Assembly (NCBI RefSeq): GCF_018446385.1
Contig: NC_055991.1
Span: 67,584,123-67,648,122 of the forward strand
Reading direction: 5' to 3'
From: Zingiber officinale
Lineage: Eukaryota > Streptophyta > Magnoliopsida > Zingiberales > Zingiberaceae
DNA length: 64,000 nucleotides
Position numbers and translations under genes: made by a program. Below the pieces are notes generated by a model that made no database searches, was not told where the DNA came from, and saw only the letters and a list, made by a program, of their open reading frames with translations. Positions 13,180 to 58,919 of this stretch are shown here, piece after piece (position 1 is the first letter of the stretch; the number at the start of each line of letters is the position of its first letter).

Positions 13180-13180
13180 A

Positions 13181-29400: not shown

Positions 29401-29440
29401 CTCCATTGCCTACGCGTAGGTCCACCTCGTCCTTCACCAA
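26426..29440 (-). pseudogene. Copia-B pol remnant
   Basis: In several frames on the minus strand: GAG-pre-integrase (about 29440-29000), integrase (28978-28450) with HSDVCGPF and RSDRGGEYLS, a TAG in place of Gln in PGTPQWNG at about 28631, an integrase C-terminus with an RPES linker, and RT (27950-27420) with WxMDVKIAFLNG and an intact YVDDILLIG at about 27432-27405. RNase H (26980-26590) follows, with SDASFQ, EAEYIAASEA and DNNGG. Frameshifts near 28460 and 27500 separate the pieces. It is inactive, but every catalytic motif can still be recognised. Confidence 0.87.
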
Positions 29441-29461
29441 TGCCTTGCTATTTCTTAGCGC

Positions 29462-31870: not shown

Positions 31871-31884
31871 CTCTGATACCACTA
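31871..31884 (-). other. Copia-B tRNA-iMet primer-binding site
   Basis: The minus strand reads TAGTGGTATCAGAG(C), complementary to initiator-Met tRNA, directly after the LTR end at 31886. Confidence 0.85.
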
Positions 31885-31885
31885 T

Positions 31886-33167
31886 TGGGTTTTTCGGATC
31901 GCGAAAACCGCTTTTTCGCGTCGCGGAAACCCCGAAACCCCCGCCACCGGATCCGTGCGAAGAAAAATAAAAATAAAATACGAGTACGAGTTTCTAAAGT
32001 CTAGATCTACACTATATAAGATCGTTACCCTCGATGCGATGCCCTTCGCTATCCCGCTAGTCCAACGGTTTGCCGGATCTCAAGATTGTCAAAGTAGACA
32101 ACCCTCAAGAAGTATCCACATGAACAAAATTAGGTGGAGGGGACCAAACAAAGGTGTGCTAGCACCTATGGTGTTCGGCCAAGAAAGGAGAGGGAGAGCT
32201 TGAGGAAGAAGATGATGGAATGACACTTGAAAAAAATGAATTTTTCATCAACACACAAAAGTGGCCGGCCACCATAAGATGTGTAACCCCCCTTCACATT
32301 AATCACAATTAATGTGGAGGCCATTAAAGTGAAGAATTGTAACCTCCATGAGGTGGCATCTCACTTGAGTAACCATGATAATGTGGAGCATCATCATTGG
32401 TCCACATCTTGCCAACTCACTTATGATGTGGCATAAAGTCAAGTCAAACTTGACTTTTCCTCTTCCTCTCAAGTCAAGTCAAACTTGACTAAATCTCTCT
32501 CATGGTTGATCTAAACCAACCATTTAATTCAAGCCAATTTAATATAATGAATCTAATTCATTTAATTAAATTGATTCAATGAGTCATAATCTAAATTAGA
32601 CTCATTGAACACATGAATCAACTTGAGTCCAACTCAATTAGCCCAATTAGGATTACTCTTAATCCAATTTGATTCATCAAATGAATCTAATCCTCTTGGT
32701 TCATCATATGAACCTAATCTCCATCTAATTGTCCTTAGTGTGTGACCATATAGGTTCTTGTAACGTTGGCAATGCCCCTAAACCCATTTAGGAGCATAAG
32801 TAATGAGCGGTATCTAGCAACACATCATTACTACCCAAGTTACAAGAATGTTGAGATCCAACATCACCTTGTGACAACTAATTGTGACTCCTCACAATAT
32901 ATGATAAGTGTCCTTCTATCCTAGACATCTAGATTGATCAATGTGAGGCATAGACCGTGTCATCCTCTGACCAATCTAAATCTTGAACTCCAAGTAGACT
33001 CACTAAATCAAATGAGCTCAATATCTCATATTGACTCATTTGGGCATGACCATGCACTTTGTGGTCTCACTCTATCAAGAATATCGATGTCTCTCCCGTC
33101 ATATAGGAGGGATAGATCCTATCTACATCACTCACATCCCTCCGCATAATTTGTTACATACCCAGTA
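31886..33167 (-). repeat. 5' LTR of Copia-B, truncated
   Basis: It matches the 3' LTR from its inner end up to CATACCCAGTAA, then stops abruptly at the SIRE-B LTR. About 545 bp of the outer end, including the TGTTAG terminus, are missing. Confidence 0.87.
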
Positions 33168-34033
33168 AACCAACATCTGGTCAACCATGACCTGTTGGTA
33201 CATCATGCCTAGCATCCGGTCACCCTTGACCTGCCAGGACTCCCTTACCAAGTGTCTGGTCAATCCCTTTAACCCACTTGGACTTTTCTCCTCGTGCCAA
33301 GTGTCCGGTCATCCATATCCCACTTGGACTTCCACCAGATGTCTGGTCAACCTTGACCCATCTAGATTTCCTGTGTCTAGCTTCACTCACCAGGACTTCC
33401 CTTCTGCCTAGCTTCACTCACTAGGACTTCTCCTTTGCCTGGCTTCACTCACCAGGACTTTCCTTACTGCCTAGCTTCACTCACTAGGACTTTCACCTAG
33501 CTTCACTCACCAGCATTTTATTCTGCCTAGCTTCACTTACTAAGTCTTTCACCTGGTTTCACTCACTAGGATTTTCTTCTGCCTAGCTTCACTCACTAGG
33601 ACTTTCCACCTTGCTTCACTCACCAGGATTTTCTTCTGCCTAGCTTCACTCACTCGGACTTTCCACCTGGCTTCACTCATCAGGATTTTCTAGTGTGCCT
33701 AACCTTCCAGTAGGACTTTCACCTGGCTTCACTCACCAAGATTTTCCATAACTGTCTGGCTTCACTCACCAGGACTTTCTAGTCTGCCTAACCTCCCAGT
33801 TAGGACTTTCACCTGGCTTCTCTCACCAGGATTTTCCAGTCAAGTATCCAGTCAACCTTGACCTACTTGACTCTTCTTCATAATCTCCCCACATGAACAA
33901 TTGCACCTGCAATCTCCATGTCTTGTCTCCATGTATTGTCAAACATCGAAATCCAAACATCAAGACTCGAGCTTGACCTAATTCAAGCTCAGTCAACTAG
34001 GTCAACCTTGACCTAGGGCATATTGCACCAAAA
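33168..34033 (-). repeat. 3' LTR of SIRE-B, truncated
   Basis: It matches 58057-58919 of the intact LTR. The remaining 880 bases (the equivalent of 57177-58056) are absent. It carries the same hairpin array. The terminal TG is mutated (TTTTGGTGCAAT instead of TGTTGGTGCAAT), next to the polypurine tract AAAAAGGGGAAGAT. Confidence 0.87.
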
Positions 34034-36216
34034 ATCTTCCCCTTTTTGATGTTTGACAATACCTCCTTTAAGTTAGGCTAATCTCATAGCCTCAACTTTC
34101 TTCATGCCAATGTATGAATGAGGGTTTCCTTCATTCTCCCCCTTTCCTAGAGGGCAAACTCTCTCTTTAGGTAATGAAGGCCTAACTTAACCACACATTC
34201 TCCCCCTATTGGTACACATCAAAAACTCTCCCCTTGAAGAGTTACCTAACATTGTTTACAACTTCACTTGTTGTTCACAACACAATAACGAAGGTCCCAT
34301 ACCCTTCATTATTATTAACGCTCATCCTTGAGCATATATCACTTGAATAATGAAGATATCCACTCTCCATTATATTTAAATGCCCAACCTTGAGTATTTT
34401 CACTTAAGAAGGTTAACCACCTTCCAAGGTGTATGAAAAATAGATTTTCATGTCCTTAAAGAGTAACTCCCTCTGAAGACATGCACGTAACTTCTGTTAT
34501 TGCACCAACAATGACTTGGAATCCCTAAACCTTTAGGAAACCCAAATTTTAAAGTTTTGAGGTTCAAAAATTCAATATTGAAACCAAACCTCAACCTAAA
34601 CCTCTACTTAGTCTTCCTTGACCAATCCATACTTGTTTTCATCATGAAAACTCCCCCTAAATGTATACAAATATGTTTTGAGGGGTAAGGGATGGTTACA
34701 GAGACTAAAAATGCTGAAATCTAGCTCACCCAGCCAAAAACAGCATCCCCAATCGATTGGAGTTGGGTCTCAATTGATTAAACCTGCTTGAATCGATCCA
34801 CTGATCGATTCAAGGGTTGTGGATCGATTGGCTGATCGATCCAGTGAGCTTCTGCTCGCGGGACAACTCCTCTCAATCGATCGCCCGATCGATTGAGGTG
34901 CTCCAATCGATCGGGGGATCGATTGGAACTCTGAAAAACTGAAAACTTATTTCAGTGAATTTCAGAAACTCCCCTAAAATTCTAAAAAATTTAAAAAATC
35001 ATGAAAATTCATGTAGACACTATTTAGGATATATATTATCAAGGAAAAATAGTTTTCTATGAAAATACTTTCTATTTTCCAAGATTGACACAAACTTGAA
35101 AACTTGTAAAAAGTTTAGTGTTTTCTTCCAAGTTTGTTCTCAACTATTCAATGATGATTACTATCAAAAGATAGCCTTCATCAAGGTTTTCCAAAGCATA
35201 TTTAAAATCATTTTCAAAACCAATATCCAACCATATTCTTTGGGCTCAATGCACATGACTTGTACATTAGCTTTCCCAATGATTGGAAAACACATAACTA
35301 TATGTTTTGATGAATTTAAAACTCAAAAGAATGCTAAATCAACATCTTGAGTTTTGTTCATCATCCTAACATCTCACTTGTATTTAATGTGTACGAAACC
35401 ACATACAAGTCACCTTATAGTTCTTAGTGAGATGTAAACTTTGGTTTTGCCCTAATCTAGGGATCATGCATGTCTATCTAGGTATTTTAAGGTTAGGAAC
35501 ATCCACCAAGGATGTTACTTGTTAATGAATGTCATTTGTCCTTAGTTTTCAAGGAATTAAAAATAATGCATGATGTGTTATGGCATACATCAAAGATAAA
35601 TAATTTTCAAAAGAAAATTTCCTATGACTACATGATGTGTGTATGACATGACATGATATTTTTGTGTTTTTCATAATAAAACATGAATGCAAAATATGAT
35701 GTCATGGCATATGATGGGCAAACAACGCATGGTAAATTAGCATAAATGAGATACCTAGACTATCTATCTAAGTATCTTTAATCCTTAGCTAAATTAAAAT
35801 TTAAAACCTAGATTGCCCACTATTTCCCAAGAAAATGCCAAAATTCAATTTTGACATTTCTTTTGATTTTCCTAATTTTGTGCTAATTTAAATTAAGCAA
35901 ATTGCTCAATTTTTTTTTTGGCGCAAATTACTCTTTTAAAGAGTAACAAATTAAGTTAAGGCTTAAGTTGCCTTTAATTCCTAAGAACATACCACAATCC
36001 CAACTTGGTAGTTCTTATGATTTTCCTAAATGTGCCAATTTAATTTTAAAATCAAATTTCTCACATTATGCCACATCTTACCCTTTCCAAGAGTAACTTA
36101 GTTATCCATTTCATTTTCAAAGGTTAATAATAACCCTGAAAATGCTCTCCGAGTGTCAACTTCATCAAAGTTAGGTTAACTACCCTTCTAATCGGAGTTG
36201 ACACTCTCTAACCCAT
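34034..36216 (-). other. Non-coding internal region of SIRE-B
   Basis: This occupies the place of pol but has no frame resembling protease, integrase, RT or RNase H. It is AT-rich with many CTCCCC/TTCTCCCCCT pyrimidine runs (34125-34250) and an ATCGAT palindrome array (34747-34935). Confidence 0.6.
34747..34935. repeat. Internal array of ATCGAT inverted repeats
   Basis: The pairs are TTGAATCGATC (34788-34798) with GATCGATTCAA (34803-34813), CTCAATCGATCG with CGATCGATTGAG (near 34872-34897), and CCAATCGATC with GATCGATTGG (near 34903-34926). The outer arms differ but stay complementary. It resembles the array in the SIRE-B LTR at 57690-58020. Confidence 0.8.
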
Positions 36217-37404
36217 CTAAGGGATAGAGAAAATGCTCCTAGGAACCCAACACCTATTAGTGCTCCCTGGATGCTCTAGGTACTCACTAGGAATAGCCTC
36301 CCTAGATACCTTCCTAGTAACCTTGTTAGACTTCTTAGGGGCCTTGGTCACATTTTCTAGGTCAACTCTAGGGATTGCTTCCCTTGTGACCTTCTTAGTG
36401 ACTTTCTTAGACTTCTTAGAAGTCTTGGTTACGTTTGGTGTTGCAAAAATACTTCTAGGGATAACTCCCCTTGTATTTTTGGCTTGATCACTAGGCCTAG
36501 GGTTGGTTCCATAACTATATGGAACTCTATGGTAAGAAGGCACATCCTTTTTGGTTTTAGGTTTGTATCCCAAACCTCTATGACCCTTGGATGACCCTTG
36601 TTGTGCTAAACTTAGATTTTGCTCATTTTGCCCTTTTAGGATATTCTCCATCCTTTTTAGGGTCTTTTCTAATTTATCAAGTCTTGACCTTAAGACTCGA
36701 TTTTCACTCATTAAATCCTTAGTTTTTGATTTTTCATTTAATCCTTGAGCAATTTTATTTTTAGTCTTGTAACTAAAATCCTTAGAATTCTTGCCTAAAT
36801 TTTTATCTACCTTCCTAGACCTAGGTGTGGTAGTTTTAGCATGAAGAGCTACATGTTTTTCCTTAATGCTATCATGCTTCCTATTTATATGGTAAATAGC
36901 ATTAAAATGATATAAATTAGAACTAATATGCTTTTTACCATTATTTAAAGGGGTAGACTCAGTAAATGATACCTTGCGTTTTACCTTGGAGACTCCCCCT
37001 TGAGTTGTGTTTCCTCCTTGAGCCTTGACCACTTTCTTCCCCTTAGGACATTGACTTCTATAGTGTCCCTTTTGATTGCAAGAGAAGCACACAATGTGCT
37101 CCATCCTCTTCTTTGTTCCGGGAGCAGTCTCTTTGGGCTTCTCCTTGCCCTTTGATGCCACTTGACCCTTTTTCTTGGCCAATTTAGGGCACTTGCTTTT
37201 GTAGTGCACATGCCCCCTACATTCAAAACATATGATATGATCTTTATTTTTAGATGAAATATTTATACCTTCACATGTAGGGATGACACTTGATCCTCCA
37301 TTTGATGTCTCTTGATTTTTAGAGGATACATCATCTTTTTCTCCTTTTGACCCAAATGTAGAAGCTTCTCCTTCTTCTTGATCCGATGTCAGTAAAAGTC
37401 GCTC
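36217..37404 (-). pseudogene. SIRE-B gag, C-terminal part
   Basis: The frame enters from the Copia-C border at 37399 and is open to the stop at 36217. It has two CCHC zinc knuckles: CFECRGHVHYKSKC (near 37230-37190) and CFSCNQKGHYRSQC (near 37095-37055). A coiled coil follows (SENRVLRSRLDKLEKTLKRME), then a very basic tail with two related copies of a unit of about 27 aa (KKSKKVTKKVTREAIP and KKSNKVTRKVSREAIP), ending STNRCWVPRSIF. Two knuckles and a coiled coil fit a SIRE nucleocapsid. The basic repeats are unusual and could add nucleic-acid binding. The N-terminal part lies at 56499-57158. Confidence 0.8.
37400..37404. repeat. Target-site duplication of Copia-C (left copy)
   Basis: CGCTC here is repeated exactly at 56499-56503, on the other side of Copia-C. 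Confidence 0.95.
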
Positions 37405-39805: not shown

Positions 39806-39822
39806 ATCTCCCACTTATACTA
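39806..39822 (-). other. Polypurine tract of Copia-C
   Basis: The minus strand reads AGTATAAGTGGGAGAT immediately before the 3' LTR; it primes plus-strand synthesis. Confidence 0.88.
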
Positions 39823-39826
39823 ATGA

Positions 39827-42834: not shown

Positions 42835-42839
42835 TTATC
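42835..42839. repeat. Target-site duplication of the Athila-like element (left copy)
   Basis: TTATC here is repeated exactly at 52010-52014. Without the insertion the Copia-C frame is continuous (KGEI followed by TIYMG). Confidence 0.95.
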
Positions 42840-44535
42840 TGTTCGCTCTTCGCAAGTGTACGGAAATATCGCAAGTAATATAAAAGATTATCGTATCCAC
42901 AGGGACTGGAATAAGTACTAGAAATGTCTCAATGCGAATTAGCCAAACAACTATCCAATCGTTTCAAAAGCAAAGTAAGGTAAACAAATCTAATCTTAAA
43001 GATCAACAAACAAGAGTTTAGTGTTTTGGGTTATGATAAAGGAAGATTCTAGGAGTTTCGGTTTCTTTGTAGGATTTCTCGAATGTAAATGGTTCACCAA
43101 TTCTTATCCCTCAATTGCCAAACATGTAGAAAGTTGCCGATTCTCTCTTGCAATAGACAACCGGCTAAGGACTGAGAAATGTATCTAAATAGGATTAATT
43201 AGACATGAACCTATGTTGTCCTTACACAGAAGTGCACCTATTACTATGCCTTCCTCGGATATCAACGTAGAAGCCCACGACTTATCAATCTATCAAGATA
43301 CAAGAAACTAATCACAAAATCCATCCTACTCTCTTGAATATTCCAATTTCCTCTTCAAGATTGTCTCTCAAACGTCCTTACACGGGCTTGCACCTGTCAC
43401 GTGGATCCCTCGGATGATCGAGTGAGAGTTTATCTTTACAAAGTCCATAAGAAATTCAAACAATTAATCAAGAATGAGAATTAAGCACGAATCATCTTTA
43501 ATCGTTCAAGATCTAATTGATACAAGCAAGATAATGTCATTGAAACAAGAGAATGACAAATCCATAAGAGATTACATCAATCCATCATACAAATACTCCC
43601 TTCATCCTAGAATACAAGATCTACTCCATGAATCGAGGAAGAAAACCCGAAGAAATAGAGAATACAAGCATTCCTTAAATCCCCAATCCAAGAAACCAAG
43701 AAAAGGGGGAAAGAGAAAACTTATCTACGAAGAAACTTCGTCTTCGGATCCAATCCTCGCTCCGGAGCCGGAATCGCCAAGAACTCCCCTTGAATCGCCC
43801 AGAAATCCTCCCAAGAATGGGAGGAAACCACCAAATCTTGCCTTCTCCCAAAGGGGGAGAGATCCCCTTTCAATTCATGAAGGAGGGTTTAAATAGAGGA
43901 GGGAATCGGGCGCCACACGGCCCCGTGACACGGCCGTGTGAGATTCACACGGCCATGTCCAGTTCCTTCTCTACCAAAACTGCACGGCCGTGTGGTGCAC
44001 ACGGCCACAGCCTGCTTAGTCTCTGGAAATGCTATACGGCCGTGTGGTGCACATGGCCACAGCCTGCTTAGTCTCTGGAAGCGCTACACGGCCTTGTGGT
44101 GCACATGGCCACAACCTGCTTCGTCTCTGGAAACCTCACACAGCCGTGTAGATCCACATGGCCATGTAGGGCTTCTGCTCTGGTTGGCTTCAAATCTTGA
44201 CACGGCCGTGTGAAGTTCACACGGCTATGTCATTCTCCACTTCTGTTGGTGCCAAACTCCACACGGCCCGAGCTCCATACCAGTGCAGGGTCGTGTAAGG
44301 TATACGGCCCGGTGCTTTCTCCCTTTGTTTCCTCCAATGCTTGCCCAAGGATGTAGATTCTTCACCAAATCGACTCCTGTGTACAGAAAATGCACAAAAA
44401 GCAGATCTCCGAACTGAAAGAGTAAATATGCTAAAAGGAAAGCTGGAAGTATAAAAATGCATAGATCAAGCATGCTCAAAGTATGTAAATGTGCGTAAAA
44501 ACATGCATAAAAGAGTATATAATCTATGCACATCA
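42840..44535 (-). repeat. 3' LTR of the Athila-like element
   Basis: 1696 bp, TGTTCGCTC...GCACATCA in + reading. It carries the CACGGCCGTG palindrome array (43910-44310) with one 52-bp unit more than the other LTR. More CpG sites have become TpG or CpA here than in the 5' LTR (for example ATACGGCC and CACATGGCC). The minus-strand promoter region has TATTTAAAC near 43886. Confidence 0.95.
43910..44310. repeat. CACGGCCGTG palindrome array (3' LTR copy)
   Basis: This GC-rich block is built from CACGGCCGTG. Larger hairpins are visible, such as GACACGGCCGTGTG (43927-43940) with CACACGGCCATGTC (43946-43959). Units are separated by the spacer AGCCTGCTTAGTCTCTGGAA. Confidence 0.9.
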
Positions 44536-45586
44536 CACCCCCAGACTTAAACCTTTGCTTGTCCTCAAGCAAAATGCCGCAGTCTAAATTCATATGTTCT
44601 ACAACACATTCATAAAACCTAGTGCACTTTCCTAACTCTATCAAAAAGTTTCATTAGAAAGCATGATCATAGAAACAAGTAAAGTATGGTTCAAACATAA
44701 GAATCTTGTGCACAGTGTAAAAGTAACTCAACACTCTTCAAGTTTCAATCCATGTCCTAGTCAAGTCGTCATCAAATTTGAATTCCTAGTGTTTCCAGTG
44801 AAAGACAAGTAACCAGTGATAGGCACTTACTCACCATTCACTTGGTTCATATTTCTCAACTAACCCAAGGTCTCAAAGGTGTGCTCAATATCAAGAGAAG
44901 CTAAACAGTCATTTCCCCAGTAACCTAACTCGGTCTCAAAGGGGTGACTTGCTAGATTCCACTCATGACAACTGTTTTTTATATCCCTTATTTTTTTTTA
45001 TAAGTGTTTGCATTGTGCAAAACTTATTCACAAATGTAATTTTTAGCACACATGTTGGGATATTTTGATTTTTCCAAATGAGCTTTAATGATTTGAGCCT
45101 CATCCAGTAACCAAAATGAAAGTTGAGAAATCACCATGGAAACCAAGTACTAAGCAAACAAGATGAATCATGACTATTTCAATGACATCAACTATTCAAG
45201 CATCAAGCACAAGTGTAGTGAAGATAAAATCCTTAAGGTTGAACCAAAACTAAAACTCATCACCATAAGATTCTTAGCTTGTTTCATGCTACCCAAGATA
45301 GAGAAAAGAAGTACATAAAGTTTACTACTAGCATCATTCGAACATCATGAATCAAGACAATAATCGTGCTAACATTTCACTTGAATCCAAGAAAGCATAT
45401 AAGTGAAGATTTGATGTTCTCAAATTTTTTTTGCCATGATTATTTCAAAAACAAGCAAAATAAAGCAACAAACAATGAAAATAAGAACCAACATGAAAAA
45501 CTAACAAAAACAAAAAGAAACTGAAAACCAAACTAAACAGTACATAACACCCCCCCAGACTTAAACTTTTCATCATCTCGATGAAA
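44536..45586 (-). other. 3' untranslated region of the Athila-like element with two polypurine tracts
   Basis: The minus strand has TTTAAGTCTGGGGGTG next to the 3' LTR (44536-44551). An almost identical tract with a longer G run (AGTTTAAGTCTGGGGGGG) lies at 45550-45567, just after the accessory ORF stop. The rest is A/T-rich and non-coding. Confidence 0.7.
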
Positions 45587-47096
45587 TTAATATGGTGGAG
45601 GAGGTGGAGGTGGACGAGGGAAAGGAGGTCTACGACGTGGTTGGCCAATAGGAAAACTAGGAAAACCTGGAATCTCACCCAAAGATCTATGATACTCATA
45701 TAAAGCATCTACTTGTTGGCTAGTAAGCATCATGCTCTACATAAAATCTCTCATCCTAGCCTGATCAGTATCATAATCCTGCACAAACTCAGCCACTTGA
45801 CCTTGGAAATTCCTCGTAAACTGAAAATGATTTTGTACCTCCCTAAACTGATCATCAGATAAAGAGAAGTGCCCCTCCAACATTTTTCGTTGGGAATCTT
45901 GCTTCTCATGAAGTGATTCTAGAGACGTACGAAAATCTAAAAAATCAAACCTAGAAGATCCCGTGACATATGCAAAAGAATGCCTAGCGGGCTCCATAAA
46001 ACTAGAAGGCTGCGGGTGTCCATATGACGAGGGCTCATGATGTGACTCAGTGTCTCCAGGTATAGAAGGGTTATCCTCAGAATCTAACTCAGAAATTACC
46101 CAATTAGCCGGGTTACGAATAGTAGTTCGTTCAGGAAAAGGAAGGGGTAGAGGAGAACCACTCCTCCTAGGAAACGCAAAACCATTCTCATCCCGAACAA
46201 TCATTTTCATAGCAAGACATGCATCAATGTCAATCATGTCATTACCATGAATTATTTCCAACCCATCAACATCAAGATTTAAATTACAAGCTATTTGGGT
46301 AATCAAACCACCAAAAACAATTGATCCTGATGATGCCCTAGCAGATCTTAATAAGGTTTGAACAAAATGAAAACCAGAATCAAATTCAACCTTATAAAGC
46401 ATAGCCCATAAAGCATAAAGCTCTATCTTTTTAACCACCCCATCACTCTCTCCCCTACCAAAAATAGTTTTACCCATAACTCTATGTAGATACCTAAAAA
46501 TGGGGTTTTGCATATGGGAGGCCTTAGCTCTTGAAGGCTCATAAGGTTGATCTAACCCAGTTATTGCATTCCAAAAATGATTCCAATTAAACCTTGGATC
46601 AAACCTACGAGGGCTACCGGTGGTTAATCCAAAACAAGAATTGAAGTCACTAAATGCCCATAGAAATTCTTGATTCATTAGTCTAAAAGAGATTTTTTCC
46701 AAAATAATCATCCTCATTAGTAAAATGGACATCCAATGAACTCAAAAATTCCAAAACAAGACGAGGATATGTAGGCAAATGGGTGTACATAATATCACCC
46801 CAATCTAAAAACCCAATCATCAAATCTACATCTTCCCTAATTCCAAGCATATCAATAACAGTTGGGTCCATATATCTAGTACACACTATCTTTCTATTGA
46901 CAAGAATTGCAAATCTAGTTACTTGATCATCATTTCTAAACACAATATTGAATTCATTGTCATTACCTTCGTTGCGTGAAGTCCTTTTGCCTTTGCCCTT
47001 CACTGGTTGCTTTCCTTTGTCCCTTGATGGCTCCCTCTCTTTGTCTCCACTAGATCCACCACCTCCTTTGCGAAGTCTCTTCAAAATATTGGACAT
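45587..47096 (-). pseudogene. Athila-like accessory ORF (ATHILA ORF-1 / plant transposon protein type)
   Basis: It starts at the Met at 47096 (MSNILKRLRKGGGG) with a Lys/Arg/Gly-rich basic N-terminus. The core follows: TRFAILVNRKIVCTRYMD, then YPRLVLEFLSSLDV, then (after a frameshift between about 46690 and 46730) FRLMNQEFLWAFSDFNSCFG and the hydrophobic block IELYALWAMLYKVEFDSGFHF...GSIVFGGLIT. A TAG at 45737 is followed in frame by a proline-rich tail (PPPPPPPY) and a stop at 45587. The YPRLVLEF and GSIVFGGLI motifs are those of the ATHILA ORF-1 / plant transposon protein families, whose role is unknown. SIRE-A carries a related-looking ORF in the same position. Confidence 0.7.
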
Positions 47097-47289
47097 CTTG
47101 ATGAGTTTAGATAGGGGAAGAATTATCTAGAGTTGTGGAACTCAAAGAACAAAACTTCAAAGAATAAAAGATCTTAGGTTAAGAGAACAAAAAGTCCAAG
47201 TCTTAGAGAGGAGGAGAATCGGATCTAAGAGATCTCGAGAGATTAGAGAGGAGTTTTTAAGAGATTGGGAGAGAAAGATATGTTTTGGA

Positions 47290-47600
47290 GAGCTGGGGGT
47301 GTGCGGAACACGACCAAGATCTGGCCGTGCGAGGTAGGAGGTAGACTTTAATAGTTCTCCTACACGGGCCGTGTAGATCTACACGGCCTCCCCCTCTTCC
47401 TTCTCTGGATTCCTCGCACGGCCGTGTCTGGGACACGGCCTCTCCATCTTTCCTCTCGGGATTCTTTACACGGCCGTGTCTAGGACACGGCCTATACCTT
47501 TTTCTCCTCGGGAGATCCCACACGGCCGTGTCTGGATGACACGGCCCAAGCACTTCCCTTCTCTGCAACCTTTGCCTGGCCGTGTATAGCACACGACCTG
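47290..47600. repeat. Internal CACGGCCGTG palindrome array
   Basis: Five or more CACGGCCGTGT/GACACGGCC units with CTCTGGATTCCTCG-like spacers lie between gag and the accessory ORF, outside the LTR. This is the same motif as in the LTRs. Confidence 0.85.
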
Positions 47601-47729
47601 ACTCTGTTTTGCACCTAACCTGAAAACAAAATCAAAAGAATGCATCAAACTAAAAGAAATTACAATACAAATCAAAACTAACTAAAAGAACCCTTGGGTT
47701 GCCTCCCAAGAAGCGCTTGTTTAAGGTCT

Positions 47730-50201
47730 TTAGCTCGACCAAACTTTATCATTCGCTTCTTTTCCTCGCCCTTGGAGGACAGATATACTTTTCATTTTTG
47801 TTGGGAGATCTTCTCCCAACATCTTCCACCACATTGTCTCATTCATTTGGTGGCCTTCCATGAGGATGGAAATTCCATTCCTCAAGTTTATAAATGTTTG
47901 TCCTGCTACAACATTTAAAAGAGACGAGACATGGTTAGAGATATTAGATAAATCATATTCCAACTTTTCCTTACCAATTACCAAAGAAAGCTTATGATTT
48001 TTGACATCAATTATAGCTCCAGCTGTAGCAAGGAAAGGTCTTCCTAATATGATAGGAATCCTAGGGTCCTCTTCCATGTCCAACACGACAAAGTCTGTGG
48101 GAATAACATTCCCATCCACCTCTACTGGCACATCCTCTATAATACCCAAAGGGTACCTGCAGGAATGATCGGCAAGTTGAAGTGCCATAGTAGTAAGTTT
48201 AATGTTTTTGAGACCTAATTTATTACAAATTGAATAGGGAATGAGGCTAACACTCGCCCCCAAATCACAAAAAGCTTTTTCAAAAAATCCTTTTCCTATG
48301 TTGCAAGGAATATAAAAGCTCCCTGGGTCCTTCAGTTTTGGAGAAGTGTTCTTCTCAAAAATAGCACTACATTCCTCACTAAGCGCAATGGTCTCGACCT
48401 CTCCTCTTCTTCTCTTATTTGACATGAGATCCTTCCGGAATTTGGCAAATCTAGGCATTTGTAGAATAGCATCAATAAGAGGTACCTCTACACAAATTTC
48501 CTTAACCTTTTCTAGAAACTTGCCAAATTCTTCATCCTTCTTGAGCATTGTAAGTCTCTGAGGAAAAGGGACAGCTTTGCTCTGATGGTTCAGTGGAAGA
48601 GTCTCTTCAACCTCAATGGTACTCTCCTCATTAGCTTGAATCTGATTTGGTATAGGAGGAGAGAGCTCTTCTTCTTTTTGTATCCCTTTTGAAGCAGTCA
48701 CTTGGGAGTCTCCCAATGTCCGTCCGCTCCTAAGCTCAATCCTATTGCAATGCTCCATAGGATTCACATCAGGTTTTCCTGGAAGCTGTCCTGGTGCTCT
48801 GGATGATGAGGAAGCTAGTTGGGCAATTTGACTATCCTGGATCCTTTGATGCTTATCAGAATTATCCATTCTTTGAATGAGCTTTGCTATATCTTGCTTC
48901 ATTTCATTCTGACTTGAGACAATTTCTTCAAGCATCTTTTCAACATTTGACTTTGGTAAGCCTTGAGAAGATAGATGTTGAAAATTTGGTCTTGCCCCCA
49001 TAGATGGTCCTTGATCTTGATTATTTCTGTAAGAAAAATTTGGATGACTCTTCCATCCAGGGTTATAAGTATTTGAGTATGGGTTGTTCTGCCTTTGATT
49101 GTAACTCATGATTGCATCACATTGTTCAAGTTGATTGATTTGTGCAGTGATAGCTCCCAATGGACATGAGTCATTTGAATGCTCTGAACTCCCACATACT
49201 TCACAAGATGTACTAATAGCATTGACCATATTAGCACTAGTCCCCATATTTTCAAATTTCTTTGTAAGAGCGTCCAATTTTGCAGACAAAAGAGTGACTG
49301 CATCTACATCAAACTTCCCTGATGCTTTAATTGTTGGGTTTACAGAGGAATAGCCACCACTTCTTTCATTTTCCCATTGATGATGATTCTGTGCTACACT
49401 TTCAATGATTTCTTCGGCTTCATCTAAGCTTTTGTTCATAAGTGCCCCTCCAGCAGCTGAATCAAGGGACACTTTGGTATGATAATTGATACCATTGTAA
49501 AAAGTGTGCAACACTAACCATCTTTCCAACCCATGATGTGGGCATTGTCTGAGAATACTATTATATCTATCCCATGCTTCAAAAAGAGATTCTGAGTCAG
49601 TTTGCTTGAAGCTCGCAATTAAATTCCTCATATGAGCTGTTTTGCTTGGTGGATAGAACTTATCAAGAAACTGTTGCTCACACTGCTCCCAAGTGGTGAT
49701 GCTATTAGGGGCTAAAGAATTCAGCCATTGCTTTGCCCTATCTCTTAGAGAAAACCCAAATAATAATAATCTAACTGCATCTGAAGGAACTCCATTCATT
49801 TTCATGGCCCCACATATTTCATAAAAGACCTCTAAGTGTTGATTGGGGTCTTCATGAGGTCCTCCACCAAATTGGTTCTGCTGCACCATAGATATGATTG
49901 CGGGTTTGATCTCAAAGTTGTTATCTTCCACTGAAGGTCTTGAAATACTAGATCGAAAACCTCTTGCATAAGGTGCTGCATAATCCTTAAGTGGTCTATT
50001 TGCCATGTTCAAATGTTCCTGTTCTTCAATTTGCCTTTGCAGAATTCTTCTTTTATGGAAGGTTCTATCAATCTCAGGGTCAAAAGGAAAGAATTCCCCT
50101 GCAGAGTTAGATCTTCGCATACACAAGAACAAGATAGCAAATGACAATTCAAAAAAAAAGAAAAATAAAAGAATCAAAAATGCAGAATTGAATTTGTACA
50201 A
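47730..50201 (-). CDS. Athila-like gag-protease polyprotein
   Basis: One open frame of up to 823 codons. I prefer the Met at residue 28 (MRRSNSAGEF) because the first 27 residues are a Phe-rich stretch unlike gag. The capsid core (residues about 120-290) has LLFGFSLRDRAKQWLNSL, FLDKFYPPSKT and CPHHGLERW. A CCHC knuckle (CEVCGSSEHSNDSC) is near residue 335, followed by a Gln/Ser-rich linker. The retropepsin (about 640-760) has the Athila-style DLGASVSLIP in place of DTG/DSG and IILGRPFLATAGA. The frame ends soon after the protease, where RT would start in a complete element. It is unbroken, so it could still make particles. Confidence 0.87.
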   Translation of the reverse strand: MYKFNSAFLILLFFFFFELSFAILFLCMRRSNSAGEFFPFDPEIDRTFHKRRILQRQIEEQEHLNMANRPLKDYAAPYARGFRSSISRPSVEDNNFEIKPAIISMVQQNQFGGGPHEDPNQHLEVFYEICGAMKMNGVPSDAVRLLLFGFSLRDRAKQWLNSLAPNSITTWEQCEQQFLDKFYPPSKTAHMRNLIASFKQTDSESLFEAWDRYNSILRQCPHHGLERWLVLHTFYNGINYHTKVSLDSAAGGALMNKSLDEAEEIIESVAQNHHQWENERSGGYSSVNPTIKASGKFDVDAVTLLSAKLDALTKKFENMGTSANMVNAISTSCEVCGSSEHSNDSCPLGAITAQINQLEQCDAIMSYNQRQNNPYSNTYNPGWKSHPNFSYRNNQDQGPSMGARPNFQHLSSQGLPKSNVEKMLEEIVSSQNEMKQDIAKLIQRMDNSDKHQRIQDSQIAQLASSSSRAPGQLPGKPDVNPMEHCNRIELRSGRTLGDSQVTASKGIQKEEELSPPIPNQIQANEESTIEVEETLPLNHQSKAVPFPQRLTMLKKDEEFGKFLEKVKEICVEVPLIDAILQMPRFAKFRKDLMSNKRRRGEVETIALSEECSAIFEKNTSPKLKDPGSFYIPCNIGKGFFEKAFCDLGASVSLIPYSICNKLGLKNIKLTTMALQLADHSCRYPLGIIEDVPVEVDGNVIPTDFVVLDMEEDPRIPIILGRPFLATAGAIIDVKNHKLSLVIGKEKLEYDLSNISNHVSSLLNVVAGQTFINLRNGISILMEGHQMNETMWWKMLGEDLPTKMKSISVLQGRGKEANDKVWSS

Positions 50202-50343
50202 AAAGAACTAACAAGAAGTGAAAGTTATACAAGAAAGTAAAAACAGAAATCTAATGATTAGTTACAACTATGCAATATGAAAGGAAAACAAATGTTATGT
50301 TTAGTCTAACTCAATTGATAATTCCTAATGTTATAGCGCAGTC

Positions 50344-50362
50344 CTCGGCAACGGCGCCAAAA
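50344..50362 (-). other. tRNA-Asp primer-binding site of the Athila-like element
   Basis: The + strand reads TCGGCAACGGCGCCA, the 3' end of plant tRNA-Asp(GUC), so the minus strand is its complement, TGGCGCCGTTGCCGA, three bases from the 5' LTR end. tRNA-Asp priming is known for Athila. Confidence 0.87.
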
Positions 50363-50365
50363 ACT

Positions 50366-52009
50366 TGTTCGCTCTCCGCAAGTGTACGAAAATGTCGCAA
50401 GTAATATAAAAGATTATCGTATCCACAGGGACTGGAATAAGCACTAGAAATGTCTCAATGCGAATTAGCCAAACAACTATCCAATCGTTTCAAAAGCAAA
50501 GTAAGGTAAACAAATCTAATCTTAAAGATCAACAAACAAGAGTTTAGTGTTTTGGGTTATGATAAAGGAAGATTCTAGGAGTTTCGATTTCTTTGTAGGA
50601 TTTCTCGAATGTAAATGGTTCACCAATTCTTATCCCTCAATTGCCAAACATGTAGAAAGTTGCCGGTTCTCTCTTGCAATAGACAACAGGCTAAGGACTG
50701 AGAAATGTATCTAAATAGGATTAATTAGACATGAACCTATGTTGTCCTTACACAGAAGTGCACCAATTACTATGCCTTCCTCGGATATCAACGTAGAAGC
50801 CCACGACTTATCAATCTATCAAGATACAAGAAACTAATCACAAAATCCATCCTACTCTCTTGAATATTCCTATTTCCTCTTCAAGATTGTCTCTCAAACG
50901 TCCTTACACGGGCTTGCACCTGTCACGTGGATCCCTCGGATGATCGAGTGAGAGTTTATCTTTACAAAGTCCATAAGAAATTCAAACAATTAATCAAGAA
51001 TGAGAATTAAGCACGAATCATCTTTAATCGTTCAAGATCTAATTGATACAAGCAAGATAATGTCATTGAAACAAGAGAATGGCAAATCCATAAGAGATTA
51101 CATCAATCCATCATACAAATACTCCCTTAATCCTAGAATACAAGATCTACTCCATGTATCGAGGAAGAATACCCGAAGAAATAAAGATTACAAGTATTTC
51201 TTAAATCCCCAATCCAAGAAACCAAGAAAAGGGGGAAAGAGAAAACTTATCTACGAAGAAGCCTCGTCTTCAGATCCAATCCTCGCTCCGGAGTCGGAAT
51301 CGTCAAGAACTCCCCTCGAATCGCCCAGAAATCCTCCCAAGAATGGGAGGAAACCACCAAATCTTACCTTCTCCCAAAGGGGGAGAGATCCCCTTTCAAT
51401 TCATGAAGGAGGGTTTAAATAGAGGAGGGAATCGGGCGCCACACGGCCCCGTGACACGGCCGTGTGAGATTCACACGGCCATGTCCAGTTCCTTCTCTGC
51501 CAAAACTGCACGGCCGTGTGGTGCACACGGCCACAGCCTGCTTAGTCTCTGGAAATGCTACACGGTCGTGTGGTGCACACGGCCACAGCCTGCTTAGTCT
51601 CTGGAAGCGCTACACGGCCGTGTAGATCCACACGGCCATGTAGGGCTTCTGCTCTGGTTGGCTTCAAATCTTGACACGGCCGTGTGAAGTTCACACGGCC
51701 ATGTCATTCTCCACTTCTGTTGGTGCCAAACTCCACACGGCCCGAGCTCCATACCAGTGTAGGGCCGTGTAAGGTACACGGCCCGGTGCTTTCTCCCTTT
51801 GTTTCCTCCAATGCTTGCCCAAGGATGTAGATTCTTCACCAAATCGACTCCTGTGTACAGAAAATGCACAAAAAGCAGATCTCCGAACCAAAAGAGTAAA
51901 TATGCTAAAAGGAAAGCTGGAAGTATAAAAATGCATAGATCAAGCATGCTCAAAGTATGTAAATGTGCGTAAAAACATGCATAAAAGAGTATATAATCTA
52001 CGCACATCA
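50366..52009 (-). repeat. 5' LTR of the Athila-like element
   Basis: 1644 bp, the same as 42840-44535 apart from scattered substitutions and the lack of one 52-bp palindrome unit. The palindrome array is at about 51436-51785. Confidence 0.95.
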
Positions 52010-52014
52010 TTATC

Positions 52015-52961
52015 TCCCCTTTATATAGTCGTCGGGTTTCCTGGAACCCCTGCAAAGAATTGCAGACATGATCAGTGGCTCCCGTATCTACACACTAGGT
52101 GCTGGTAGATAACACCGCTAAACATGTTTCAACAACCAGAGCATGAGATATACCTTTTTTATTTTGATTCCTACGAGGACAGTCCGCCTTCCAATGTCCT
52201 GACTTCTTGCAGATGAAGCACTTGCCCTTCGACTTCTTCACTCCAGCTTTAGCTCCTGTACTCTGAGATTTATTCACCTTCTTTGCTAAGCTAACTTGTT
52301 TCTTCTTCTTCTTTCCTTTCGGTTTAGAAGTAGAACCATTTTCAACATAGTAAATCTGAGAATTATGACGAAACAAACCTTCTGCTGCCTGAAGTTCTGT
52401 CAGTAGTTCCACCAATGAATATACCCTTTTATTCATATTGTAATTCAGGCGGAATTGCTCAAAACTTCTAGGTAGCGTTGGGAGGATCATATCGATCTGG
52501 GTTTCCCCATCAATTTCTCCTCCAAGGATTTGTATTTCATTTAGATAAGTCATCTTCTTTAGGATATGATCCCTCACGGGAGTACCCTCTTGCATGGTGG
52601 TTGTCATTATCTTTCTCATGGCTTCTTGCCTAGAGGCCCGATCCTGGTGACCAAAGAGTTCCTTGAGATTGTTCATAATATCATAGGCTATTAGTAAATC
52701 TTGATGTTTATGTTGCAATACATTTGACATTGAAGCTAAAATGTAAGACCGCGCCATCTCATCTGCTTTTACCCATTTCCTATGATACTCAATCTCCTCT
52801 TGGGTAGATTCACCATTGTGTGTATCAGGGCAAGGCTCAGTCAGTACAAACTTATAGCTTTCAGCAGTAAGAACAATATCCAGGTTCCTTTTCCAATCTA
52901 TGTAGTTAGGACTAGTAAGTCTGTTTTCTTTTAGTATGATGGCCAGTGGGTTGAAAGTCAT
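52015..52961 (-). pseudogene. Copia-C gag and protease start
   Basis: The gag most likely starts at the Met at 52961 (MTFNPLAIILKENRL). The UBN2-type core includes NYIDWKRNLDIVL, YDIMNNLKELFG and the EQFRLNYNMNK region. A Lys-rich stretch and the zinc knuckle CFICKKSGHWKADC follow near 52215-52170. The frame stops at a TAG (52095) where the normal pol sequence would be Trp before CVDTGATDHVC. That DTG protease motif is readable just downstream, up to the Athila insertion at 52014. It is broken by one G-to-A-type stop and by the insertion. Confidence 0.88.
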
Positions 52962-53024
52962 CCTAAGAATCACAAATAACTTTTTGGTCAGAACTCTAAA
53001 TTTAGAATAATATTGATTCCTCAA

Positions 53025-54061
53025 ACAATACTATTTTAAATTAACCAACACCTCAAAACACCGTGAATTTTGTATGCCACGATAGTGTGGACGTATACAA
53101 ATTCAACATTTGTAAAAGGAGGGTTTAACCCATTAATTTTATTATCTTGTCAACCTAACTTTTTGACAAATAAAATTAATAGTTGGTTTCCTTTGTTCAC
53201 ACGAATAATAGCAGTGACTCCGATGGGGAGGATACTATTAGACGTGCCTAAGTGTATACCATTACTTGACACTAACTCCATTAATAAAATTGTGCCCCTT
53301 CCGATGGGGAAGATCACACATTCTTAATTAACTTCCTATAGTCATCCACAATGGAAGTTTGTTCTAGTGATCCATAAACAAACTCATCCGATATGGAGGA
53401 AGGCACTCAGAGCCAACACGCAAGTTTGTTTGCATTACTTACAAACCAGTAATGGAGACCATGAGATTTATTTAAAATCCCTCTCCCACTTAGTTATTTA
53501 AAATGAGAAATTTTGACTATGCTAGCCTACTAAACATGTATACTAACATGCACACACAACACAGTATAAAAGCAATAAATAGAAAAACTAATTTTTAACT
53601 ATTATGGCTTTTATCTATTGTTGTCCTCCGTGTGTTGTCATCCCTAGCTGCTGCCATTTTTGGCCACCGCCACCGAGTCTAGTTGCCGCATCCATCTTGC
53701 TCCATGTTCCGCTGCGCCTCTGGTCCTCAAAAGGTTCCACGCCTTGCAAGATTCGATCCGCGACAAAAATAGAATATTACATTTTTTGATCTTATATTCC
53801 TCGAAGGAATGTACATGAATCTAGATCAAAAAATAAAATCCTAATAAAACTAAATACAACTCCTGCTGTATTTTATAATACAATCATGCACACACAATAA
53901 ATGCCCTTAACATGTCCAAGGGTCCAATCACACACATAATAACTATAAGCCATAATAGTTGGATCCTGCATCCACAAAGTAAGCATATCCTACTATTAAC
54001 CTGCCTAAATTATGTATGACATGTGCATAATTAAACTAATACCAAATACACAGAGGCAAAA
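53025..54061 (-). other. Untranslated leader of Copia-C
   Basis: About 1 kb between primer site and gag without a convincing frame. The motif GATGGGGAGGAT/GATGGGGAAGAT occurs twice (near 53222 and 53304). Confidence 0.5.
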
Positions 54062-54065
54062 CCCT

Positions 54066-54079
54066 AGCTCTAATACTAA
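54066..54079 (-). other. Copia-C tRNA-iMet primer-binding site, mutated
   Basis: The minus strand reads TTAGTATTAGAGC where TGGTATCAGAGC is expected. The differences are transitions, as expected of methylated, silenced DNA. Confidence 0.7.
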
Positions 54080-54080
54080 T

Positions 54081-56498
54081 TGTTGGTTGCTACTAAGAAA
54101 ACCTAACGGTTCCACTGTACAAAAATTTTATACAAAGGTCTGAACCTTTTCCTAGCTACCATGTATTCTTTTAATTAAACTTGGATCGCCTGCAGAACTT
54201 AACACGTTTGATCCAAAGTTTAATTTATTTGTTATTTTAGGTTTAGACTTGGATCTCCTGCGAAACTTAACACGTTCGATCCAAATCACCTAGGTTATTA
54301 ATTTCATTAAATATTAATTTCATTAAATATTAATTTCCAAAATTGGCTTTCAGGACTGCATGGCGAGGCACATGACCTTCTTGGATATGGGAACAACCAC
54401 CACCGCCTAGACAAAGCCTTTTAAGGAAAGCTAATATTTAATTTCCTTAAATAACTTTAGGTCAACCAAAAAGAACAATCAAATCACAAGGAAAAGAAAA
54501 ATAAAAGAACACTATATTGAAAACTAATTCGAAATACTAGAATCGCATGCCTCTTGTATTTGGTATTTTTACAAAGAAATAAAACTAGTATGATGCGGAA
54601 ATTAAATACTAGTATACCTTTTTATTTTGCAAGCAAAAACCTCTAGGTCTTCTACCGTATTCCTCTTCTAACCTCGGACGTTGTGTGGGCAACGATCTTC
54701 CGAGATGAGATATCACCAAAGCACCTTCTTCTTCTCCTTGCAAGGTTCGGCCACAACAAGAGCACCTCCAAGGATGAAGAGATTCAACCAACCAAGCTCC
54801 AAGGAATGCAAGCTTTCTCTCCTTCTTCTCCAAGCTAAAATCCGGCCACTACTTGATCTCCAAGGAGGATGAAAGGTTCGACCACAAAGATGGAGAGAAG
54901 AGAAAGGGAAGAGGCCGGCCACACCAAGGAAGAAAAGAGGGAGAAAATAATAGAGGTTGTTCACCTTGAAGGCACCAAAACCCTCTCTTTTATAATCCTT
55001 AGTTTTGGAAAATAAGGAAATTTAATTACAATAAAATTTCCTTAACTTTCCTTGACATGAATTAATTAAGAAAAATTAAATAAAATTTCCTAATAGATCA
55101 TGTCATGGCCGGCCACCTCATGGAGAGCAAACAAGACAATTTTCAATCAATAATTAAAATTCTTTATTTGTCTTCGGAAATTTTAAAAATAAAATTTCCC
55201 TTTAAAATCCCTTCATGGTTGATAAAAAGAAATTTCTATAATTTTAATTTTTTAACATGTGAATAATTTACAAAGAAGAAAAATAAAATATCCTTCCAAT
55301 CTACATATAAGGAAAGAGTTCTAATCTCTTTCTTTAATCTTTTGTAGAAAATTATAAAAGAGATATTTTAATTTTTAATCTCTCCAATAAATTATATCTT
55401 CCACATAAGAAAATTTTAAAATTAAAATTCTTTTCTAATTTAATAGGGCCGGCCACCTAAGCTTGGGTTCAAGCTAGGGCCGACCACCCATGGATCAAGG
55501 CTTGGCCGGCCTTAGCTTGGTCCTCAAGCTAGCTTGGCCAGCCCCTACAACATGGGTGTAAAGGTGGGTATAGGTGGGTATAGTATTCTATAAATAAGAG
55601 GCTACGATAGGGACCGAGAGGAGGAATTGATTTTCGTCTCCCGATAAAATTAAGCATCCCGTGTTCGCCCCGAACACACAACTTAATTTTATCAATAATA
55701 ATTCATTCCACTAGAGAACTATTATTGAACTATCACACCAATCCCAAATTATATTTTTGGGCTACTTCTTATTATGAGTGTGTTAGTCTCCCTGTGTTTA
55801 AGTTATCGAATGTCCACTAATTAAGTGAGTTACTGACAACTCATTTAATTAATATCTTAGTCCAAGAGTAGTACCACTTAACCTTATCGTCATGTCGGAC
55901 TAAGTCCACCTGCAGGGTTTAACATGACAATCCTTATGAGCTTCTCTTGGGGACATTATCAACCTAGATCACTAGGACACAATTTCCTTCTATAATCAAC
56001 AACACACACTATAAGTGATATCATTTCCCAACTTATCGGGCTTATTGATTTATCGAACTAAATCTCACCCATTGATAAATTAAAGAAATAAATATCAAAT
56101 ATATGTGCTTGTTATTATATTAGGATTAAGAGCATACACTTCCATAATAACTGAGGTCTTGTTTCTTTATAAAGTCAGTATAAAAGAAACGACCTCTGAT
56201 GGTCCTACTCAATACACTCTAAGTGTACTAGTGTAATTATATAGTTAAGATAAACTAATACCTAGTTACACTACGACCTTCCAATGGTTTGTTTCTTTCC
56301 ATTTTCGTCGTGAGCTACTGTTAATAATTTATAAGGTACTGATAACATTATCTTCTGTATGTGACACCACATATTATGTTATCTACAATATAAATTAATT
56401 GAAGAACTATAAACAAATGTAGATAATTTGACCAAATGTGATTCTTTATTCAAAATAAATGTTTACAAAAGCTTAGACTTTCAGTATACACTCTAACA
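54081..56498 (-). repeat. 5' LTR of Copia-C
   Basis: 2418 bp, matching 37405-39805 from end to end. It has a 19-bp direct duplication (TTTCATTAAATATTAAT) near 54301-54338 that the other LTR lacks, plus scattered substitutions. Confidence 0.96.
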
Positions 56499-57162: not shown

Positions 57163-57176
57163 GCTCTGATACCACT
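57163..57176 (-). other. SIRE-B tRNA-iMet primer-binding site
   Basis: The minus strand reads AGTGGTATCAGAGC, directly adjoining the 5' LTR end (57177). Confidence 0.88.
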
Positions 57177-57689
57177 TGTTGGGACCGAAATGTAGCTAGA
57201 GGGGGGGGTGAATAGCTCGGCGAGATCTCATGCTCTTCGTTGCTTGTTTCTTGTGGTGAAATGCAGCGGAAAATACAAAGAAACAACACTCAACGCTAAC
57301 ACTAGGGATTTACTTGGTATCCACCTCAAGAAGAGGTGACTAATCCAAGGATCCACACACTCACGCACCCTCCACTATGTAAACACTCCTTTTCGGTAAC
57401 TACCCAAGGCGGAGAAGCCCTACAATACTCTCAATACAACAAGAGACAACGAGAAGCAAATACAAGGAAAAGCTTACACGATTTACATAATAAACCCTAA
57501 CCCTAGCTTCTTCTTCTTGCTATAGATTCGTCTCTTGACTTGGAAATGCTTCCAAGAACCATCAAGATCTGACATGAGAGTGACTGTGGAAAAGCTCTGT
57601 GGTCGCTGTTGTCGCTGGAGAAGAAAGCCGAGAGAGATCTGCAGAGAGAAACGCTCGCCAACAGCTAAATACGACGCCAACGGTCGAAT

Positions 57690-58020
57690 CCCAATCGATT
57701 GGATTGCTCCCAATTGATTGGGGAGGCTTTGGATCGATCGGCCGATCGATCCAGAGCGCCTCTGTGCTCTCGAGAATTGCCTGGATCAATCGGCCGATCG
57801 ATCCAGGGCTTATCGCACAGAATCGCGACTCCCAATTGATCGACCGATCGATTGGAGGCTCTGAATCGATCGACCGATCGATCCAGAGCCATTCTGTGCG
57901 ATCGCAAGCTTCTCCAAATCGACCCACTGATCGATTGGGAGGAGGCTTATTGCGGGGACTCACCCAATCGATCAGCCGATCGATTGGGCATGAGCTAATT
58001 GATCGGCTAATCGATCAAGC
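57690..58020. repeat. ATCGATCGG palindrome array in the SIRE-B LTR
   Basis: Six or more inverted repeats, such as CCTGGAT (57780-57786) with ATCCAGG (57801-57807) and CCAATTGATCG (57832-57842) with CGATCGATTGG (57845-57855). The arms switch between the CCTGGAT, CCAAT and CTGAAT types, and the partners follow with at most one mismatch. Confidence 0.87.
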
Positions 58021-58060
58021 TCAAGGTTTTTGCCCAAAACCAAGTCCAAAGTCCCCTAAA

Positions 58061-58760
58061 CCAACATCCGGTTAACCATGACCTGTTGGTACATCATGCC
58101 TAGCATCCGGTCACCCTTGACCTGCCAGGACTCCCTTACCAAGTGTTTGGTCAATCCTTTTGACCCACTTGGACTTTTCTCCACGTGCCAAGTGTCCGAT
58201 CATCCATGACCCACTTGGACTTCCACCAGATGTCTGGTCAACCTTCACCCATCTGGATTTCGTATGTCTGGCTTCACTCACCAGGACTTCCCTTCTGCCT
58301 AGCTTCACTCACTAGGACTTCTCCTCTGCCTAGCTTCACTCACCAGGACTTTCCTTACTGCCTAGCTTCACTCGCTAGGATTTTCACCTGGCTTCACTCA
58401 CCAGGATTTTCTTCTTCCTAGCTTCACTCATTAGGTCTTTCACCTGGCTTCACTCATCAGGATTTTCTTCTGCCTAGCTTCACTCACTAGGACTTTCCAC
58501 CTGGCTTCACTCATCAGGATTTTCTTCTGCCTAGCTTCACTCACTAGGACTTTCCACCTGGCTTCACTCACCAAGATTTTCTAGTCTACCTAACCTTCCA
58601 GTTAGGACTTTCACCTGGCTTCACTCACCAGGATTTTCCACAACTACCTGGCTTCACTCACCAGGACTTTCTAGTCTGCCTAACCTCCCAGTTAGGACTT
58701 TCACCTGGCTTCTCTCACTGATCCAGTCAAGTATCCAGTCAACCTTGACCTACTTGACTC
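58061..58760. repeat. Variable-arm hairpin array in the SIRE-B LTR
   Basis: Long hairpins: CCAACA/TGTTGG (58061, 58084), CCTAGCA/TGCCAGG (58099, 58123), CCAAGTG/CACTTGG (58139, 58166 and 58188, 58212), CCAGATG/CATCTGG (58226, 58250) and AGTCAAGTA/TACTTGACT (58725, 58751), most with a GGTCA...TGACC core. Between 58266 and 58715 there are about 16 short ones with loop CTTCACTCA and arms CCTGG/CCAGG, CCTAG/CTAGG or CCTAAC/GTTAGG. The truncated LTR repeats the array at 33170-33880. Confidence 0.92.
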
Positions 58761-58919
58761 TTCTTCATAATCTCCCACATGAACAATTGCACCTGCAATC
58801 TCCATGTCTTGTCTCCATGTATTGTCAAACATCGAAATCCAAACATCAAGACTCGAGCTTGACCCAATTCAAGCTCAGTCAACCAGGTCAACCTTGACCT
58901 AGGGAATATTACACCAACA

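Follow-up and report, generated by a model that had tools for sequence, protein, structure and literature searches.

The palindrome array at 58061-58760 of the window, a 64,000-nucleotide stretch of Zingiber officinale DNA, is real, and we put at roughly 55% the probability that it represents a distal U3 cis-regulatory module of a Sirevirus-type long terminal repeat (LTR) in which a DNA-level process, possibly template switching, keeps the palindrome arms matched. The anatomy of the element, the excess of palindromes, the covariation of their arms, the excess of W-box-like motifs and the contrast in CpG content between neighbouring arrays are directly established.

In maize, LTR regions rich in palindromes have been connected with targeting by host small RNAs, and such regions are regarded as promoter elements. 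Variable-but-matched arms separate two questions that constant palindromes cannot, namely whether the core is retained (as a binding site) and whether the symmetry is retained (as a structure or as a mutational by-product), and many family copies in the host genome would make this distinction directly answerable.

Element anatomy and location of the array

The window contains nested plant LTR retrotransposons, the features of which that bear on the array are collected in Table 1. In Sireviruses, the junction between the 5′ LTR and the interior has been described as CA followed by ATTGG or AGTGG and TATCAGAGC, and the integrase signal as a C-rich stretch near the LTR 3′ end (PMC2829016). The minus strand at 57163-57178 reads CA/AGTGG/TATCAGAGC, the stretch ATTCACCCCCCCCTCTAGC agrees with the integrase signal by eye rather than by a profile, and a purine tract, AAAAAGGGGAAG-AT, lies ahead of the partial 3′ LTR in element orientation, this LTR starting with TT where TG is expected. 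Together with the LTR ends, the junction and the C-rich signal point to a Sirevirus-type Ty1/copia element as the host of the array, an assignment to which the purine tract may add. The LTRs at 57177-58919 and 33166-34031 probably belong to one element, because the primer binding site and the purine tract lie on their inner sides. The partial 3′ LTR stops at class-1 unit 1 (33166), where an element at 24635-33168 abuts; blastn with the whole 5′ LTR as query returned no other long match in the window for the missing part.

Ten of the 13 listed open reading frames (ORFs) were searched against Pfam. Among interior-piece ORFs of at least 180 aa, represented only by the gag-like ORF at 36217-37209, there is no reverse transcriptase of the Sirevirus-type element, and a similarity search with the gag-like ORF gave one match. 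The RVT_2 ORF at 39827-41503 belongs to a nested copia, not to the Sirevirus-type element. A second copia (37405-56498), with CGCTC at both flanks, interrupts the Sirevirus-type interior, and an Athila-like element (42840-52009, with bounds taken from its LTR pair) sits inside that copia.

In element orientation, the 5′ LTR carries the CpG-poor array at 160-859, a CpG-rich array at 900-1230 and the TATA-like box at about 1395. The CpG-poor array is probably located in U3; in the 5′ LTR it would then form part of the promoter, and the RNA would contain it only at the 3′ end.

Table 1. Positions of the array, its units and related features in the window
Feature	Position	Strand	Remarks
5′ LTR, 1743 bp, ends TGTTGG...CCAACA	57177..58919	-	Sirevirus-type Ty1/copia; interior junction agrees with PMC2829016
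Spacer AGTGG and primer binding site TATCAGAGC	57163..57176	-	junction as in PMC2829016
C-rich stretch ATTCACCCCCCCCTCTAGC	57195..57213	-	18 bp inside the LTR 3′ end; resembles the Sirevirus integrase signal (PMC2829016) in a by-eye comparison
TATA-like box CTATAGCAAG	57516..57525	-	motif match only; both arrays upstream in element orientation
Alternative TATA candidate TATTATG	start 57492		motif match
Partial 3′ LTR, same family, 94% identical	33166..34031	-	truncated beside class-1 unit 1
Gag-like ORF with CCHC zinc knuckle	36217..37209	-	zf-CCHC 23.3 bits, cut-off 20.8; element interior
CpG-rich array, CGATCGGCCGATCG type	57690..58020	-	some units with the CGG-CCG signature; lies between the CpG-poor array and the TATA-like box
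Linker palindromes, CGATCG type	34743..34930	-	about 0.7-0.9 kb before the 3′ LTR in element orientation
Five class-1 units, variable 7-nt arms, GGTCA..TGACC-like core	58060..58256	-	core-only selection; covariation
Class-1 unit 1, arms CCAACA/TGTTGG	58061-58089		
Class-1 unit, arms CCTAGCA/TGCCAGG	core 58109		6/7 pairs; absent from the preliminary description
Two class-1 units, arms CCAAGTG/CACTTGG	cores 58149 and 58198		
Class-1 unit, arms CCAGATG/CATCTGG	58226-58256		
16 short class-2 units, tandem	58267..58718	-	loop CTTCACTCA in 12/16; period about 30/57
Sixth class-1 unit, arms AGTCAAGTA/TACTTGACT	58725..58759	-	
U3-end palindrome GAGCTTGA..TCAAGCTC	58855-58876	-	
U3-end palindrome GGTCAACCTTGACC	58886-58899	-	class-1-style arm placement pairs only 2/7

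Palindrome excess and the tandem units

Against 100 dinucleotide shuffles of 58061-58760, perfect stems with arms of at least 5 number 15 compared with 6.05 ± 1.75 (0/100 shuffles reach 15), those with arms of at least 6 number 8 compared with 1.68 (0/100), and those with arms of at least 7 number 3 compared with 0.54 (2/100); the similar hairpin counts that the preliminary description had proposed to look for in shuffles of the LTR did not arise. The partial other LTR (33170-33870) is weaker, with 12 stems against 6.54 (1/100), 4 against 1.88 (9/100) and 2 against 0.50 (11/100) at the same arm lengths. All the stems named in that description occur at their positions, but a complete GGTCAA..TTGACC is found in just one of the six class-1 units (58149). 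Its estimate of about 16 short hairpins agrees with the 16 class-2 units, whereas the loop it called constant is exactly CTTCACTCA in only 12 of them; all five counted arm pairs form in 9/16, and both hairpins with CCTAAC/GTTAGG arms have other loops (CTTCCA, CTCCCA).

The class-2 units form a tandem repeat with periods of 30, 57 and 90 (11.7, 6.9 and 4.2 copies), so part of the stem excess reflects a single palindrome copied repeatedly. Their arms pair in 70/80 cases against 54.6 after swapping in the 5′ LTR (3/20000), a result that becomes weak when distinct arm pairs are taken once each (36/45 against 29.1; 663/20000); the corresponding values for the other copy are 67/80 against 56.4 (27/20000) and 52/65 against 43.2 (203/20000). 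Variant class-2 units (CATCAGG, CACCAAG) occupy different repeats in each LTR (58446-58635 and 33555-33745), as if shifted or exchanged within the array.

The tandem periods would suit a plain minisatellite, in which an accidentally palindromic unit was amplified and drifted without function, and so would the collapse of class-2 arms to a few amplified forms and the presence of inter-LTR substitutions in stems as well as spacers. This explanation is nevertheless unlikely: class-1 arms differ and yet match (4/40320 in the arm-swap test below), the same design recurs with other cores in separate arrays, and the location of the array is that of the repeats in published Sireviruses (PMC2829016).

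Matching of variable arms in class-1 units

Class-1 units consist of an arm of about 7 nt, three unpaired bases on one side, a GGTCA-like half, a short loop, a TGACC-like half and the partner arm. For the arm-swap test, units were chosen by core pattern alone and their right arms were permuted among units, core matches containing AGTTAGG being excluded (two from the 5′ LTR, one from the other copy). With eight cores in the 5′ LTR, own arms pair in 43/56 cases against a mean of 24.1 for swapped arms, which is equalled by 4 of 40320 arrangements, and own arms in the other LTR copy pair in 43/56 against 22.8 (2/40320), counts that include one false core per LTR (58725 and 33838). Omission of the U3-end unit from the 5′ LTR gives 41/49 against 24.6 (2/5040). 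The earlier observation of variable, mutually matching arms around a steadier core is thereby statistically real.

An alignment of six class-1 units gives a consistent picture across the whole structure, with 94.4% of cells paired against 80.4% in shuffles (0/500) and at most 40.9% for slid partners, 12 both-sided cells against 3.5 (0/500), and a covariation score of 0.544 against 0.222. The excess is less clear for pairs with a both-sided change (6 against 2.8; 5/500), and further pair types show none (9 against 8.1; 204/500). In the outer arms, six of the seven pairs have changed on both sides and one is invariant; one of 42 cells is a mismatch, and the 41 paired cells include no G-U, so that no pair is kept via a one-sided G-U change. 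The evidence base for arm covariation comprises one element, two LTRs and six class-1 units, and two of these units have identical arms, which lowers the number of independent events. The outer arms of unit 1 (58060-58090), CCAACA/TGTTGG, have the same letters as the LTR termini.

Covariation of this kind (a score of 0.544 and 94.4% of cells paired) could also indicate that the stems act as RNA, the hairpins being selected in the U3 portion that ends the genomic RNA on its 3′ side, where they would serve packaging, the control of polyadenylation or reverse transcription, with compensatory covariation. Folding of the element-sense strand does beat shuffles (z = -4.85), but so does that of the opposite strand (z = -3.84; 20 shuffles each), no Rfam family exceeds its gathering score in the LTR, and the array is probably missing from the RNA 5′ end because it lies upstream of the TATA-like box, all of which renders selection on RNA decidedly improbable. 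The lack of G-U pairs in the six units' outer arms likewise makes a DNA process fit better than RNA selection, although the counts involved are low and five G-U cells occur among the CGATCG-type units.

Comparison of the two LTRs

Among 149 stem pairs compared between the two LTRs, drawn from six class-1 units and from 15 of the 16 class-2 units with one pair dropped for a gap, 22 differ, every one of them on one side only. Since an element inserts with two identical LTRs, these one-sided differences represent later decay and are no test of function. Compensatory changes between the copies were considered on the same data (0/22 changed pairs both-sided) and judged uninformative. Independent mutation of the arms in other copies, which the preliminary description had proposed as a check, is indeed the pattern in all 22 changed pairs, but in the apparent LTR pair of one dead element it is expected whatever the function. 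Substitutions between the LTRs affect 1/84 positions in class-1 arms, 15/153 in class-2 arms, 3/117 in class-2 loops, 17/289 in the remainder of the array and 4/157 at 58761-58917; with 6/60 substituted, class-1 cores show no sign of protection between the two LTRs relative to the class-1 arms.

Core motifs and a proposed mode of action

The sequence TTGACY is the W-box, one of nine motifs counted. It occurs 8 times in the array against 1.21 expected (0/500 shuffles), where each palindrome counts twice, once per strand, and 13 times in both the whole LTR and the other copy, against 2.46 and 1.40, respectively (0/500 each). TGACC is also raised (8 against 1.80; 0/500), and the shorter core TGAC mildly so, with 11 against 6.59 in the array (26/500) and 20 against 15.4 in the whole LTR (70/500). 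CACGTG and ACGTG, with two occurrences each, are raised solely in the array of the 5′ LTR (9 and 14 of 500, respectively) and number 0 in the other copy. The DRE, GCC, HSE and TGACG motifs are absent in the nine-motif count, and the W-box occurs in 0 of the 16 class-2 units.

In a review, activation of the plant copia EVADE/ATCOPIA93 is attributed to WRKY factors that bind W-boxes within its LTR (PMC12786077). The array shares with it the presence of W-box sites within a plant copia LTR, but direct WRKY binding is reported for EVADE/ATCOPIA93, whereas the present evidence consists of motif counts, with the sites forming inverted pairs in palindromes.

If the array is a U3 regulatory module, the repeats would act as DNA in the 5′ LTR. 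Judged by their letters, the class-1 cores form inverted W-box-like pairs (GGTCAA/TTGACC) that could be read by WRKY factors, and such multi-site cores may constitute a stress-responsive enhancer. Binding of WRKY or other factors would account for the class-1 core, not for the matched variable arms. Tandem duplication would change the number of units, and the arm letters would drift while their match persists, most likely through a DNA-level process; template switching in a near-palindrome, during replication or reverse transcription, could copy one arm onto its partner, with selection presumably keeping the core. Only the 3′ U3 of the RNA would contain the array, whose stems might there supply small-RNA silencing by the host. 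Template switching has been reported to create and repair stems (PMC8794818), and the hairpins so described, which come from RNA genes, resemble the present ones in that arms change in parallel with pairing retained.

It is very improbable that the palindromes matter above all as hairpins from which the host makes small RNAs to silence the element, an idea put forward for Sireviruses of maize: excess small RNAs map to palindrome clusters in maize Sirevirus LTRs (PMC10760457, PMC5311732), and the adjoining CpG-rich array folds very strongly (z = -10.63 over 57640-58030), but such a role would be a cost to the element and leaves the retention of the repeats unexplained, and the perfect stems of the array measure 5-9 bp against the at least 21 nt required in the maize study. 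The small-RNA data belong to the maize side, where the motif is CACCGGACNNNGTCCGGTG, and the array here has a different core.

Returning to DNA-level arm matching, a wider generalization is conceivable though rather doubtful, namely that arm copying is the shared process by which palindromes build up in LTR control regions across several families of plant retrotransposons. The core would be kept as a factor-binding dyad, and template switching during replication or reverse transcription would rewrite one arm from its partner, giving matched palindromes with ever-changing arms without selection for RNA structure. If true, common arm-copying predicts multi-base arm changes in one step and few G-U intermediates.

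Relation to known repeats

A 2016 maize study in Genome Research reportedly found the palindromes of the LTR regulatory region to be complex, highly sequence-variable and capable of forming hairpins, and a description of variable arms may already exist in it. Palindromic repeated motifs (RMs) have been reported from 13 Sireviruses, where they form numerous copies within the LTR, ahead of the TATA box (PMC2829016, Bousios et al. 2010), which means that the kind is known and that the array is not undescribed in this sense, a possibility that had been raised from the sequence. The RMs have a CGG-CCG core in 12 of the 13 elements, mark CpG islands, and in envelope-bearing elements have additional copies in the linker (PMC2829016). 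Like these RM boxes, the palindromic units of the array are numerous and grouped in the LTR on the upstream side of a TATA-like box, itself a motif match, and some published RMs likewise have a GGTC..GACC core (Osr8, CGGTCAGACCG; Osr10, CGGTCTGACCG). The RM boxes are presented with one consensus per element, whereas here the arms vary between units; published RM unit identity goes down to 66.5%, and matched variable arms may therefore be hidden there too (PMC2829016).

With just 2 CGG and 3 CCG on the plus strand of 58061-58760, and a CpG observed/expected ratio of 0.17 compared with 1.31 over 57640-58030, the array has neither the CGG-CCG signature nor the CpG-island character of RM boxes. 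The CpG-rich array at 57690-58020 is of the classical Sirevirus RM type, and the CpG-poor array differs from the published type in its W-box-like cores and variable arms.

Matched variable arms as such were not found in the literature at the level of abstracts, nor was any paper found that prints the array unit sequence. A known RNA family was rejected as an identity, the seven weak Rfam matches all lying in the CpG-rich array and the best of them reaching 31.6 bits where the gathering score is 90. Neither an exact nor a degenerate 20-mer from the array unit matched any stretch in viral contigs (0 stretches), and two single matches of the degenerate 20-mer in bacterial genome contigs are taken as chance, with one match each where an array would give many.

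Other arrays and elements in the window

The architecture was said in the preliminary description to be shared by families with dissimilar sequence, and core-only arm tests bear this out in three further arrays with differing cores. With units taken by their inner 6 bp only, in place of units picked by symmetry, which is circular, own outer arms pair more often than swapped ones at 57690-58020 (38/84 against 23.0; 98/20000), at about 34743-34930 (28/42 against 14.0; 2/720) and at 6540-6900 (43/77 against 23.2; 12/20000). For CGATCG-type units picked by symmetry, both-sided cells (29 against 11.2) and the covariation score are raised (0/500 each), and there is no excess of pairs with a both-sided change (7 against 5.4; 71/500) or of further pair types (13 against 13.4; 383/500); their 94.1% pairing is not evidential, since symmetry was the basis of selection.

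The palindromes at 6540-6900 are of the GATCGGTCAGCAGACCGATC type with variable arms and lie within a 2.4-kb LTR-like sequence at 4721-7113 (TGTAACGCCC...GTCGTTACA), which has GGCGG at both flanks and is situated inside a copia copy. W-box-like AAGTCAAACTTGACTT palindromes occur twice (25154-25169 and 25189-25204) in one LTR of the copia at 24635-33168 and once more (32441-32456) in its other LTR. A long AT-rich tandem array of AAATTAAATTA-like units of about 11 bp extends over 9132-9850, and the region at 10773-13900 is dense in direct and inverted repeats, with a TGTAACGACCC...GGGTCGTTACA-like unit and long palindromes, and looks like nested or tandem miniature elements. The minus strand at 19212-22622 contains an uninterrupted ORF of 1136 aa encoding a leucine-rich-repeat receptor kinase, for which the highest identity among the 120 listed of 7923 matches is 58%, to Colocasia esculenta, with 96% covered.
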